From Halorubrum xinjiangense (lineage in GTDB: Archaea > Halobacteriota > Halobacteria > Halobacteriales > Haloferacaceae), in contig NZ_FNBO01000009.1 of assembly GCF_900102375.1 (NCBI RefSeq), positions 62,001-126,000 of the forward strand: a stretch of DNA of 64,000 nucleotides, given 5' to 3'. The notes beneath the pieces were generated by a model, which was given only the letters and a program-made list of their open reading frames with translations, was not told where the DNA came from and did not search any database. Every line of letters starts with the position of its first letter. Positions within the stretch are counted from its first letter, which is position 1. Both the position numbers and the translations under genes were made by a program. Shown in pieces: positions 2,836 through 57,866 of the stretch.

Positions 2836-2842
2836 TTTATAA
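2836..2842 (-). promoter_or_regulatory. TATA box at the tail end of repeat A
   Basis: The palindromic-core TTTATAA at the distal end of repeat element A lies 24-30 nt before the ATG at 2812, the usual spacing for a leaderless haloarchaeal transcript. Equivalent boxes occur in the inner tail unit at about 2893. Position supports promoter activity; transcription is not demonstrated. Confidence 0.6.
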
Positions 2843-3297
2843 ATAGCCAACTGTCGAACGGCGGAGACCACCGCCAAAGCCCCAGCCGCTCGCTTATAAA
2901 CACCCGATCACAGATCGACGGAGACCACCGCCAAAGCCCCAGCCGCTCGGCGATACGTGATTTGCGACTCTTCCGAGAACACCTCCAAAGCCCCAGCCGG
3001 GAGGCGGGCGCACGCTCGCTGCGGTCCTCAGTCGGTCGCTGCCGCTCCCTCCTTGCGGTCCTTGCGTCACCTGCGCCGCCCTCGCGGCTGCCCCTTTGAG
3101 TCCCACCCGACCGCGACCGCACCGCAACCTCACACCTCCCCAGCCTCGTCGGTCGGCCTTCGCTTCGCTCCGGCCGACCGACTCCAGCGAGGGACCGAAG
3201 GTCCCTCTGGCAGCCGGCGCGCAGCGCCGGCGACCTCGCGCGTGCGATTCGCGCCCTCCGGGCGCTCACCAGCACGCGCCGCCGGGGTTGTTTATAA
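2836..3297 (-). repeat. Structured dispersed repeat, copy A (462 bp)
   Basis: Read on the minus strand, the element starts at a TTTATAA near 3297 and ends at the TTTATAA at 2836. Hairpin I pairs GCGCGTGC (3272-3279) with GCACGCGC (3238-3245). Two extra perfect hairpins follow (3213-3231, arms GCCGGCGC/GCGCCGGC; 3189-3207, arms GAGGGACC/GGTCCCTC). Hairpin II pairs 3172-3182 with 3148-3158 (11 bp) around a GGAGCGAAGC-type loop. Box 2 lies at 3086-3106, hairpin III has arms at 3072-3089 and 2995-3012 with a few mismatches, and three tail units carrying GGCTGGGGCTTTGG follow with a period of about 57 bp. The inner tail has lost its TATA. It fills the space between the FMN reductase and phosphohexomutase genes. 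Open frames through it are not conserved among copies. Confidence 0.85.
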
Positions 3298-12110: not shown

Positions 12111-12668
12111 GTGTTCAGCCTCAACGTCCCGCTGCCGCCCGCAGTCGACCGCCTCGCGGCCGATCTCCACTCGAAACTGTCGGGCTTCGACCGGGTCCGT
12201 GAGCGTCAGACGCTCGTCTGTAAGCGGTTCGGCGCCGCGGACGTGCGGGTCGACGAGGACAAAGGGGCTCGTGAGCGAGGCCCTCCGCCCCGACAGGAGG
12301 CCCTCGACCGCCTGCGCGAGCGCCTCCGCCGTCCGCTCGCCGAGGTCGATTCCTTCGAGGTCGCCGCGACCGGAATCGACGTCTTCGACGCGCCGCGGTC
12401 GGGGTCGCGGCCGGTCGTTTATCTGGCGATTGAGAGCGGCGCTCTGCTTCGGCTTCACCGGCGGCTCTGTGCGGCGTTCGGTGCGGTAGAGGGGATCGAG
12501 GGCGACGAGTACGTGCCGCACGTCACGCTGGCCCGGGGTGGGAATCCGGAGCCGGGGGCGGTCGTCGACCTCGTCGACGCCGAGTTCGACCCGATCCGGT
12601 GGCGGGTCCACGCGCTCGACGTGTGGGACCCGGAATATCGGGAGGCTGCCGCGACCGTCGATTTATAA
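12111..12668 (+). CDS. 2'-5' RNA ligase (LigT)-family protein, first HxT motif altered
   Basis: A 185-residue 2H-phosphoesterase-fold protein. The second HxT motif is intact (PHVTLARG, about residues 139-146), but the first, expected as HTLV in relatives, reads RQTLVCKRFG, so the catalytic His is Gln. Activity as ligase or cyclic phosphodiesterase is therefore doubtful. Translation starts at GTG 12111, supported by a ribosome-binding-site-like GGGAGG 5-10 nt upstream. The last codon and stop are TTA-TAA, inside the terminal TTATAA of structured repeat B; TTA is very rare in this genome. A second, intact paralogue lies at 18755-19339, next to repeat C. Confidence 0.8.
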   Translation: MFSLNVPLPPAVDRLAADLHSKLSGFDRVRERQTLVCKRFGAADVRVDEDKGARERGPPPRQEALDRLRERLRRPLAEVDSFEVAATGIDVFDAPRSGSRPVVYLAIESGALLRLHRRLCAAFGAVEGIEGDEYVPHVTLARGGNPEPGAVVDLVDAEFDPIRWRVHALDVWDPEYREAAATVDL

Positions 12669-13081
12669 ATAATCGGTAGCGGATCAGCGGTGAATGCCTC
12701 CGAAGCCTCAGCCGCTCGTTTATAAAGCGCTGATAACGGATCGGCGGTGAACAGCTCCAAAGCCCCAGCCGGCGAGGACTCGCGCGACTCGCTGTCGCCC
12801 GAAAATCGGAGATTTTCGGGATGACGAGAGAGCTTCGCTCTCTCGAACCACGCGCCTCACTCGGTCGCTCACTGCGTTCGCTCCCTCGTTGCGGTGCTTG
12901 CGTCGTCGAGCGTCGTCCTCGCCGGCTGCCCCTTTGAGTCCCGCCCCGCACAGCAACCGCACCTCACACCTCCCCAGCCTCGTCGCTGGCGCCGGCGGCG
13001 CCAGCGACTCCCTCGCGCGTGCTCCTCGCGCCCGCTGGGCGCTCGGCGGCACGCGCCGACCGCAGGGGTACTTGTTTATAA
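12662..13081 (-). repeat. Structured dispersed repeat, copy B (420 bp)
   Basis: Minus-strand copy between TTTATAA at 13075 and TTTATAA at 12662. Hairpin I arms are GCGCGTGC/GCACGCGC (13049-13056 and 13015-13022). Hairpin II has a perfect 12-bp stem (12982-12993 with 12997-13008) and, unlike the other copies, only a GCC loop. Box 2 is at 12924-12942. Hairpin III has a perfect 13-bp basal stem (12915-12927 with 12767-12779) and an enlarged top containing two extra perfect hairpins (arms CGAGAGAGC/GCTCTCTCG and CCCGAAAATC/GATTTTCGGG). Two tail units follow, the second with degenerated box (GGCTGAGGCTTCGG). The distal TTATAA forms the last codon and stop of the LigT-like gene. Confidence 0.85.
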
Positions 13082-16598: not shown

Positions 16599-18374
16599 AT
16601 GAACGCCGACGCGGTTCGCGAGCGGGCCCGAGACCTCCCGACCGAGCCGGGGGTCTACCAGTTCCGAGCCGGCGAGGCGACCCTGTACGTCGGGAAGGCG
16701 CTCGACCTCCGCGACCGGGTGCGGTCGTACGCGGACCCGCGCTCGGGCCGCATCCGCGGAATGGTCGAGCGCGCCGATCGGATCGAGTTCGCGGTCACCG
16801 ACACGGAGACGCAGGCGCTGCTCTTAGAGGCGAACCTCATCAAGCGGCTCCGCCCGCGGTACAACGTCCGGCTGAAAGACGACAAGTCGTACCCGCTCGT
16901 CGCCTTCTCCGACCACGAGGTGCCGCGGATCGAAGTGACCCGCGACCCGGAGGCGGGCGCGGTCGCGTACGGCCCGTTCACCGACGTGGGCCGCGTCGAG
17001 ACCGTGGTGAAGGCGATCCGCGACGAGTACCGGCTGCGTGGCTGCTCCGACCACAAGTACGAGGGGCGCGACCGGCCCTGCCTCGACTACGAGATGGGGA
17101 TCTGCTCGGCGCCGTGTACCGGCGAGATATCCCCGGAGCGCTACGCGGAGGACGTGGCCGCCGCGCGGCGCTTCTTCGAGGGCGAGACCGGCGTCCTCGC
17201 GGACCCCCTGCGGCGCCGGATGGAGGCCGCGGCCGAGGCGAACGAGTTCGAGCGCGCCGCGAACCTCCGCGACCGCCTCGAGGCCGTCGAGGCGTTCCAC
17301 GGTGAGGGCGGCGAGGCCGTCAGCGACCGGAGCGACGACCGCACCGTCGACGTGCTGGCGGCCGCCGTCGAGGGCGACACCGCCCGCGTGGCCCGGCTCC
17401 ACAGCGAGCGCGGCCAGCTGGTCGACCGGAGCCGACACCGACTCGACGCGGCGGCGGCGGAGGGGTCGACCGACGACGAGAGCCCCGGCGACGCCGCCGA
17501 CGCCAACACCCCCGCGGCCGTCCTCGCCGCGTTCCTCGCGCAGTACTACGCCGAGCGGGAGTTCCCGGACGCGGTCCTCCTGGCCGAGCGGCCCGCGGAC
17601 CCGGACGTGGTCGACTGGCTGGAGGGCGAGGGGGTGGCGGTCCGGGTTCCGGGCGCCGGTCGGGAGGCGAAGCTCGTCGAGCTTGCCCTCAAGAACGCCC
17701 GGAAGCGCGGCGGGCGCGACGACCCCGTGGGCGCGCTGGGCGACCGGCTCGGGATCTCCAGCCCGACCCGGATCGAGGGGTTCGACGTGAGCCACGCGCA
17801 GGGGACCGCCGTGGTCGGCTCCGACGTGTGCTTCGTCGACGGGAGCGCGGAGACGGCCGACTACCGGCGGAAGAAGCTCACCGACCGCAACGACGACTAC
17901 GCCAACATGCGCGAGCTGATCCGGTGGCGCGCCGAGCGCGCGGTCGAAGAGCGAGACGACCGTCCCGACCCCGACCTCCTCCTGATCGACGGCGGCGAGG
18001 GGCAGTTGGGCGCCGCCCGCGACGCGCTCGCGGAGACGGGGTGGGACGTCCCCGTCGTCGCGCTCGCGAAGGCCGAGGAACTGGTCGTCACCCCGACTGG
18101 CACCCGGAGATGGCCCGACGACGCGCCTGAACTCCACCTGCTCCAGCGCGTTCGCGACGAGGCGCACCGCTTCGCCGTCTCCTACCACCAGACCGTCCGC
18201 GACGAGGTCAGGACGGTCCTCGACGACGTGCCCGGCGTCGGCCCCCAGACCCGCCGCCGCCTCCTCCGGCGGTTCGGCTCGGTGGAGAACGTCCGCGGCG
18301 CCTCTCGCGAGGACCTCACCGACGTCGACGGCGTCGGCGACGCGACCGCCGACACGCTCCGCGAACGCTTATAA
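16599..18374 (+). CDS. uvrC: Excinuclease ABC subunit C
   Basis: A 591-residue UvrC, which makes both incisions in nucleotide excision repair with UvrA and UvrB. Domains in order: GIY-YIG nuclease ([18 protein letters not shown], about 18-35, and downstream [12 protein letters not shown]), a four-Cys cluster ([20 protein letters not shown] then ICSAPC), a UVR motif ([20 protein letters not shown]), an RNase-H-like endonuclease domain ([15 protein letters not shown] ... [13 protein letters not shown]) and a C-terminal helix-hairpin-helix pair ([28 protein letters not shown]). The last codon and stop are TTA-TAA and coincide with the first TTATAA of structured repeat C. Confidence 0.95.
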
Positions 18375-18728
18375 ACGAATCCGCGGTGGCGCGTGCCTCC
18401 GAGCGCCCGGCAGGGCGCGAGGAGCACGCGCGAGGGACGCGGCGACCGGAGCGAAGCGGAGGGAGCCGCGAGGCTGGGGAGGTGTGAGGTGTGGGGCGGT
18501 CGGGGTGGGACTCAAAGGGGCAGCCGGCGAGGCGGACGCAGGCGACGTAAGCACCACAACGAGGGAGCGAACGGAGTGAGCGACCGAGTGAGGAGCGCAG
18601 CGAGCGTGTGTCCGCCTCCCGGCTGGGGCTTTGGAGGAGTTCACGGTCGATCCGCAGTCAATCATTTATAAGCGATCGTCCGGGCGTTGGAAGTCGTCGC
18701 CGTCGATCCGCTATCAATTATTTATAAA
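18369..18728 (+). repeat. Structured dispersed repeat, copy C (360 bp)
   Basis: Plus-strand copy from the TTATAA that holds the uvrC stop (18369) to a TTTATAA at 18721-18727. Hairpin I: GCGCGTGC 18389-18396 with GCACGCGC 18424-18431, and an inner stem GCGCCC/GGGCGC. Hairpin II: GCGGC 18439-18443 with GCCGC 18465-18469 around GGAGCGAAGCGG. Box 1 GAGGCTGGGGAGGTGTGAGG at 18470, box 2 GTGGGACTCAAAGGGGCAGC at 18505. Hairpin III: 18522-18537 with 18610-18624. Box 3 GGCTGGGGCTTTGGAGG at 18621-18637, TTTATAA at 18665, then a second, diverged tail unit. The final TTTATAA is 28-34 nt before the thpR start codon. Confidence 0.87.
18721..18728 (+). promoter_or_regulatory. TATA box at the tail end of repeat C
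   Basis: TTTATAAA ending repeat C lies 27-34 nt upstream of the ATG at 18755. This matches a leaderless promoter for thpR. The first tail unit has another TTTATAA at 18665-18671 that is too far away for a leaderless start. Confidence 0.6.
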
Positions 18729-45619: not shown

Positions 45620-45920
45620 TTATAAATAGATCCGCGGTGGCGCGTGCCTGCGAGGCCGCATCGCGGCCGAGCAGCACGCGCGAGGGAGTCGGCCGGCCGG
45701 AGCGAAGCGGGGGCCGGCCGACGAGGCTGGGGAGGCGTGAGGTGCGGGGCTGTGCGGTCGGGGTGGGACTCAAAGGGGCAGCCGTGAGGAGGGCGCAGGC
45801 GATGTAAGCACTGGAAGGAGCGAACGAAGTGAGCGACTGAAGCGCGCAACGAGCGTGCGCCCTCCTCACGGCTGGGGCTTTGGAGGTGTTCTCCGCCGAT
45901 CCGTTTTCAGTCATTTATAA
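45620..45920 (+). repeat. Structured dispersed repeat, copy D (301 bp, simplest copy)
   Basis: Plus-strand copy between TTATAA (45620) and TTTATAA (45914-45920), one tail unit only. Hairpin I arms 45640-45647 and 45674-45681 (8 bp) with inner stem GGCCGC/GCGGCC. Hairpin II: perfect 11-bp stem 45688-45698 with 45712-45722 around GGAGCGAAGC. Box 2 GTGGGACTCAAAGGGGCAGC at 45763. Hairpin III: perfect 18-bp stem AGCCGTGAGGAGGGCGCA (45780-45797) with 45856-45873. Box 3 GGCTGGGGCTTTGGAGG begins at 45870. It lies between the hel308 start and the convergent end of the methyltransferase gene; the remaining 91 bp to 46011 holds only another CTTATAA at about 45965. Confidence 0.88.
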
Positions 45921-57449: not shown

Positions 57450-57866
57450 TTTAAATCGATCCGTGCGGTGCGGTGGCGCGTGCCTCCGAGTGGCCGCCGC
57501 AGGCGGCCGCGAGGAGCACGCGCGAGGGAGTCGGCGGTCCGGAGCGAAGCGGAGGACCGCCGACGAGGCTGGGGAGGCGTGAGGTGCGGTTGCTGTGCGG
57601 GGTGGGACTCAAAGGGGCAGGCGCGAGGCCGCCGTAGGCGACGTAAGTACCGCAGGGAGGGAGCGCCAGCGACCGACTGAGGAACGCAGCGAGCGTACGG
57701 CGGCCTCGCGGCTGGGGCTTTGGAGGTGTTTGTGGTCGATCTACTGTCAGCAACTTATAAGCGAGCAACTGGGGCTTTGGAGGTGTTCGTCGCCGATCCG
57801 GTATCAGCCATTTATAACGGGTGACTGAGGACTTTGAAGGATTCGCTATGCCGGCTCTATTTATAA
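57450..57866 (+). repeat. Structured dispersed repeat, copy E (417 bp)
   Basis: Plus-strand copy starting at TTTAAA (5 bp after the hydrolase stop) and ending at TTTATAA (57860-57866). Hairpin I arms 57476-57483 and 57516-57523 with inner GGCCGCC/GGCGGCC. Hairpin II: perfect 11-bp stem 57530-57540 with 57554-57564 around GGAGCGAAGC. Box 2 at 57602. Hairpin III: perfect 14-bp stem 57623-57636 with 57696-57709. Three tail units begin at 57711, 57768 and 57824 (periods 57 and 56); the third is diverged. The next gene is convergent, so the tail does not drive it. Confidence 0.87.

Follow-up and report, generated by a model that had tools for sequence, protein, structure and literature searches.

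A class-wide haloarchaeal family of interspersed three-hairpin elements that may fold as single-stranded DNA and is related to a plasmid region beside an RPA-like gene

The window analysed here, a stretch of 64,000 nucleotides from Halorubrum xinjiangense, carries five members of an interspersed family of elements (~300–420 nt, with three hairpins) that is class-wide in Halobacteria and, so far as we have found, undescribed. The reading that we prefer, and to which we give a nearly even chance, is that these elements fold as single-stranded DNA (ssDNA) and are related to a plasmid module for ssDNA handling.

A first-pass annotation of the window had proposed five structured copies with common boxes in a common order. 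Reading and aligning these regions put all five where that annotation had placed them (Table 1), and a search of the window with a profile of the five returned these core copies and no others. Each contains three hairpins, the common unpaired boxes and a tail with a TTTATAA end. Most copies open at the 5' side with a TTATAA-type end. Hairpin I (GGCGCGTGCC...GCACGCGCGAGG) and hairpin II follow, then the unpaired box CGAGGCTGGGGAGG and a link rich in G. Hairpin III is flanked by the box GGGACTCAAAGGGGCAG on its 5' side and by GGCTGGGGCTTTGG on its 3' side, and after these comes at least one tail unit of ~57 bp ending in TTTATAA. The hairpin II stems quoted previously for copies D (GTCGGCCGGCC), E (GTCGGCGGTCC) and B (GTCGCTGGCGCC) were all found in the sequence; the stem of hairpin III is long in both D and E, and in B this hairpin is extended by an inserted two-hairpin module.

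Table 1. Positions of the five elements and their parts in the window
Feature	Position	Strand	Evidence or remark
Copy A, whole	2836-3297	-	profile match
Copy A, tail units	2836-2984	-	
Copy A, hairpin III	2994-3090	-	
Copy A, hairpin II with inserted two-hairpin module	3148-3233	-	
Copy A, hairpin I	3238-3280	-	
Copy B, whole	12662-13081	-	profile match
Copy B, tail	12662-12756	-	tail end is the stop codon of the adjoining gene
Copy B, hairpin III with inserted module	12766-12928	-	
Copy B, hairpin II	12982-13010	-	
Copy B, hairpin I	13015-13057	-	
Copy C, whole	18369-18728	+	profile match
Copy C, hairpin I	18388-18431	+	
Copy C, hairpin II	18436-18469	+	
Copy C, hairpin III	18521-18625	+	
Copy C, tail	18635-18728	+	
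Copy D, whole (TTATAAAT...TTTATAA)	45620-45920	+	profile; ortholog sites in other species occupied
Copy D, hairpin I (GGCGCGTGCC...GCACGCGC, triloop)	45639-45681	+	covariation, loop counts
Copy D, hairpin II (GTCGGCCGGCC...GGCCGGCCGAC, GCGAAGC-type tip)	45686-45722	+	G.T/A.C arm count, loop counts
Copy D, conserved unpaired box CGAGGCTGGGGAGG	45722-45735	+	identical in 134/151 parsed copies
Copy D, box GGGACTCAAAGGGGCAG, 5' side of CAAAG/CTTTG helix and GGG/GGG internal loop	45765-45781	+	covariation
Copy D, hairpin III, long stem with purine-rich internal loops	45779-45874	+	covariation, loop counts
Copy D, box GGCTGGGGCTTTGG, 3' side of CAAAG/CTTTG helix	45870-45883	+	covariation
Copy D, tail unit ending TTTATAA (tandem in other copies)	45884-45920	+	
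Copy E, whole	57450-57866	+	between convergent genes
Copy E, hairpin I	57475-57523	+	
Copy E, hairpin II	57528-57564	+	
Copy E, hairpin III	57618-57714	+	
Copy E, tail units	57724-57866	+	

Two kinds of variable part were seen. Two-hairpin modules, exemplified by CCGGCGC-TAC-GCGCCGG CTGCCA GAGGGACC-TTC-GGTCCCTC GCTG, are inserted at varying points of hairpins II and III (copies A and B in the window; loci L153 and L084) and are present in other genera too; they are possibly nested mobile units. The ~57-bp tail units occur in tandem, with 0 to 4 extra units (the tails of copies A and E, among others), and their first TTATAA lies mostly at 36, 39 or 42 bp, that is, in steps of three. The 58-bp promoter repeats of halovirus HF2, a lead that arose from repeat length and TATA content, were rejected as the source of the tail since the published motifs are unlike it and phages gave no match.

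The three-hairpin structure is accompanied by strong covariation, which was measured by pair counting against shuffled and slid controls in place of R-scape. Across 103 copies the covariation score reaches 0.375, with 97.7% of cells paired, whereas shuffled controls score 0.140 ± 0.004 and slid partners no more than 0.054, so that the compensatory stem change inferred from the original copies is borne out. RNAalifold on 103 non-identical copies yields 46 pairs, 30 of them with pair-keeping double changes, and a class-wide alignment of the hairpin III domain scores 0.563 against 0.177 when shuffled, with double changes in 22 of 30 pairs. Hairpin III is closed by a 5-bp helix, which encloses a constant GGG/GGG internal loop; this helix is CAAAG/CTTTG in most species and CGAAG/CTTCG in others, with GAAAG/CTTTC and GGAAG/CTTCC as further variants and almost no mixed state (one clearly mixed CAAAG/CGAAG-type helix among about 150 copies). 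The unpaired boxes are nearly invariant across haloarchaeal families. Covariation, tolerance of G.T on one strand (below) and the near-invariant boxes together support the earlier suggestion of selection on a folded RNA or ssDNA and not on protein, although the covariation may be due in part to DNA template switching or gene conversion and not to pair-by-pair selection. A protein-coding role was rejected: the elements lie between predicted genes, and hairpin length and sequence vary from copy to copy.

The + strand is the folded one, because G.T cells far outnumber A.C cells on it (320 versus 28 in the consensus structure; 89 versus 30 in a simpler arm-by-arm count); such tolerance is compatible with RNA as well as DNA. 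The choice between the two, left open in the first-pass annotation, is informed by the loops. Hairpin I has a 3-nt loop in 97 of its 127 distinct versions, most commonly C(GAA)G, and loops of the GNA and GNNA types are enriched on the + strand. Over 400 kb of chromosome, stems of at least 9 bp carry triloops in 24/24 cases inside elements versus 6/43 outside, and stems of at least 8 bp in 35/39 versus 38/194. RNA prefers GNRA and UNCG tetraloops. The 4-nt loops of hairpin I are mostly GNNA (GACA, GGCA, GATA, GTCA), and since their third base is mostly a pyrimidine they are not GNRA. When closed by G-C pairs, loops of both types, GNA and GNNA, give exceptionally stable DNA mini-hairpins (PMC4686876). 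The loop types thus point to ssDNA over RNA, short of proof.

The main rival is nevertheless a serious one, which we regard as quite possible: a family of structured non-coding RNA genes, in which + strand transcripts of the copies bind protein and the plasmid version described below is a large RNA of ~650 nt. Strand-specific, G.U-tolerant pairing and near-invariant internal-loop nucleotides would be expected of such genes, about half of the copies have a TATA-like TTATAA near the 5' end, and the plasmid region keeps a mean identity of 77% along ~650 nt. Against this, the loops are triloops nearly throughout and not RNA tetraloops, with GNNA rather than GNRA; the other half of the copies is without a TATA-like box, and TTATAA, where present, lies anywhere between 14 and 56 nt from hairpin I. 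In agreement with the earlier failure to recognise the family, the Rfam 15 covariance models at gathering threshold gave no match in the window, only chance-level matches were obtained for copy D and the plasmid loci, and no account of the family was found in the open-licence literature. The non-coding RNAs of extracellular vesicles were considered and dropped, as the published report gives no common motif.

Orientation relative to neighbouring genes, which is unbiased, also argues against RNA genes. With a home-made gene caller, 34 loci are intergenic or nearly so, often no more than tens of bases from stop codons, in 19 tandem, 11 convergent and 4 divergent gaps (baseline 207, 70 and 65), a mild convergent excess. 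The end of an element sometimes doubles as a neighbour's stop codon or TATA-like box; in copy C the 5' TTATAA gives a stop codon and the 3' TTTATAA directly precedes the next start codon. Such proximity, with the terminal TTTATAA able to act as the TATA box of the next gene, would suit a cis-acting mRNA element of the neighbours (3' UTR, terminator or leader). However, the elements in tandem gaps show no preferred orientation (7 co-directional versus 12 opposite), which disfavours a UTR element, and we consider a cis-acting role highly improbable.

The family is far larger than the five-copy family first described: five is correct for the window, but the copies number in the hundreds and are class-wide. 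A profile search found 33 loci in 464 kb of the source genome, from which roughly 220 copies in its 3.26 Mb are extrapolated, not counted. Counts of the signature box in Halorubrum relatives are 152, 194, 113 and 11; the family thus has ~110–200 copies per Halorubrum genome with one species at 11, and makes up about 2% of Halorubrum chromosomes. The low count, obtained by pattern, belongs to genome G020, and 113 copies are carried by G016. A covariance model of the hairpin III (3') domain, R1, matches 113/145 Halobacteria genomes in 45/58 genera, with stems and internal loops in register across many genera. In a negative control of 120 genomes drawn from the phylum, all 16 with an R1 match are Halobacteria, and the domain was found in none of the about 100 non-Halobacteria genomes. 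Both searches are read here as presence or absence in a genome, since their per-genome numbers are capped and do not measure copy number.

This distribution bears on a further alternative, that the copies belong to the PATEs (non-autonomous elements of IS200/IS605 type) or to the MITEs and are still moved by a transposase supplied in trans. Palindromes, near-inverted TTATAAA/TTTATAA ends, high copy number and tandem tails are all reminiscent of such elements, and a few sites are absent or oppositely oriented between species. However, the Y1 transposase (PF01797) is absent from 6 of 24 element-bearing Halorubrum genomes, among them the 113-copy G016, which rules out dependence on IS200/IS605. 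Among plasmid records the Halorubrum form was met in only one, from Halorubrum, and in phages it was not met at all; most sites, as shown below, are common to species; we therefore think mobilisation in trans improbable. Chromosome-type copies were seen on large plasmids (L346, L341), in one case within a cobalamin gene cluster. Four viral contigs from IMG/VR (L331-L334) bear the class-wide motif GGGACTGAAAGGGGCC; in the stretches examined they contain no match to the profile of the plasmid region or to its OB-fold protein.

Comparison of sites between species, with one genome per species, indicates that the sites are vertically inherited. For copies with usable flanks in 400 kb, the same site is occupied in 20/23 cases in G027 and 20/22 in G061; the sites of all five window copies are occupied in both genomes, and about 90% of testable sites are common to species. 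Ortholog flanks are 90% identical, and orientation is the same in 73 of 78 ortholog pairs. The opposite orientation at the same site was seen in the other 5/78; at site A, G016 and G022 differ in this way from the window. A region of G023 syntenic to the window (L186-L189), by contrast with G027 and G061, has none of the five window copies. No clean empty site, target duplication or defined boundary was found at sites A and B or at one G027-specific site.

The bodies at these sites behave differently. In hairpins I, II and III, link and tail, orthologs are hardly more alike than random copies (mean likeness 0.68 versus 0.64–0.66 for hairpin II and 0.71 versus 0.66–0.68 for hairpin III). Copies with an identical hairpin I have hairpin II or III in common in 0/20 pairs, and those with an identical hairpin II have hairpin I or III in common in 0/56. 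Whole genomes have switched box type: among the listed exact sites, G016 has 57 CGAA and 3 CAAA boxes, and G061 has 47 CAAA and 3 CGAA. The family thus evolves in concert, with vertically inherited sites whose bodies turn over as exchanged hairpin modules. Ectopic gene conversion together with template switching (PMC8794818) would explain this pattern without a transposase.

It could also be argued that template switching at inverted repeats, by copying one arm onto the other, produces the covariation as a mutational by-product with folding unselected. This is consistent with the near-perfect stems, with their wholesale change at the same site and with a documented mechanism (PMC8794818). However, template switching alone leaves unexplained the near-invariant unpaired boxes, kept across families, and both the excess of G.T over A.C on one strand and the stems and internal loops in register across many genera speak against it; we give this account only a slim chance. 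Fixed sites at which paired arms are replaced wholesale offer a natural test of stem evolution, in which selection can be told apart from template switching and gene conversion.

A search with the element form of another genus matched 39 plasmid records. At 10 of the 12 loci examined, a gene encoding a protein of ~290 aa runs divergently from the hairpin III domain, which is situated ~420–560 bp upstream of it. The protein has a C-terminal OB fold (PF01336, under the curated cut-off), which matches models of archaeal replication factor A/ssDNA binding protein (NF005553, E about 1e-14, well under the model cut-off) and PDB 2kbn (E 6e-7). A TnpB gene is near only 1/12 of these loci, and a TnpB guide RNA was rejected. 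The profile of the ~650-bp region lying between the gene and the hairpin matches all 30 genomic loci of the OB-fold gene family that were examined, most near full length and two (L371, L373) in part only, and at nearly all of them the region adjoins the gene. This structured region, unmatched in Rfam, is seen beside the RPA-like gene at L335:3446-4107, L339:3536-4105 and the homologs L347-L376. Similarity to the chromosomal elements is confined to its last ~155 nt, and sequence comparison indicates that the hairpin III domain is homologous to its 3' end. R1 detects the domain at 18 of the 30 loci and therefore undercounts the plasmid form. On inspection, the other hairpins of the plasmid region are without the triloop habit. 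A close homolog of the OB-fold protein is absent from many high-copy Halorubrum genomes, including the source genome, so the protein is not required for the chromosomal copies, for which no association with an ssDNA-handling OB-fold gene was seen.

Under our preferred reading of an ssDNA-folding family, the + strand retains the ability to form three hairpins, with conserved G-rich unpaired boxes between them; it would do so as ssDNA, and an OB-fold/RPA-type protein may recognise the folded strand. The plasmid region may work like a single-strand origin or ssDNA promoter, and the chromosomal copies would derive from it by dispersal, with ectopic gene conversion homogenising them and template switching repairing their stems. 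A more specific proposal, which we put forward tentatively and consider rather unlikely as a whole, is a two-part plasmid system in which the RPA-like OB-fold protein and a strand-specific folded ssDNA region form the archaeal counterpart of a single-strand origin or ssDNA promoter, with hundreds of recombining three-hairpin satellites of its terminal domain at fixed chromosomal sites, swapping hairpins as modules. The plasmid relative by the RPA-like gene is a testable link to archaeal ssDNA replication, transfer or transcription.

The single-strand origins of rolling-circle plasmids and the ssDNA promoters of conjugative leading regions are strand-specific multi-hairpin ssDNA with conserved unpaired boxes, situated near genes for single-strand-binding proteins; we liken the plasmid region to them by these features, not by sequence. 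To our knowledge, neither is found as a high-copy chromosomal family. The large ornate bacterial RNAs OLE, ROOL and GOLLD are ~600 nt long, highly structured and non-coding. In size and structure the plasmid form is comparable to OLE (PMC9723947), ROOL and GOLLD; unlike them, the family has no Rfam match, and its chromosomal form is short and dispersed. Among dispersed repeats, the bcr1–bcr18 elements of the Bacillus cereus group (PMC3446304) are also intergenic, some with conserved secondary structure, and the bcr18 type occurs on plasmids, as does the plasmid relative of the present family. They belong to another domain of life and, in the available part of the published account, body turnover at fixed sites is not reported, the comparison being one by description. 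REP/BIME sequences with their RAYT transposase (PMC3733652) are likewise extragenic palindromic repeats of high copy number, but REPs are 20–40 nt long with a tag tetranucleotide (GTAG/CGTC), whereas the present elements are multi-hairpin structures of 300–400 nt with other boxes, present also in genomes without a Y1 transposase. Another parallel is with the PATEs of Haloquadratum (PMC3119063), which are haloarchaeal, non-coding, palindromic and several hundred bases long, with many divergent copies and no target duplication seen. PATEs have ends in common with IS605-type transposons and strain-specific insertions; the present family, by contrast, can do without the Y1 transposase, its sites are for the most part inherited vertically, and it conserves three hairpins and unpaired boxes.
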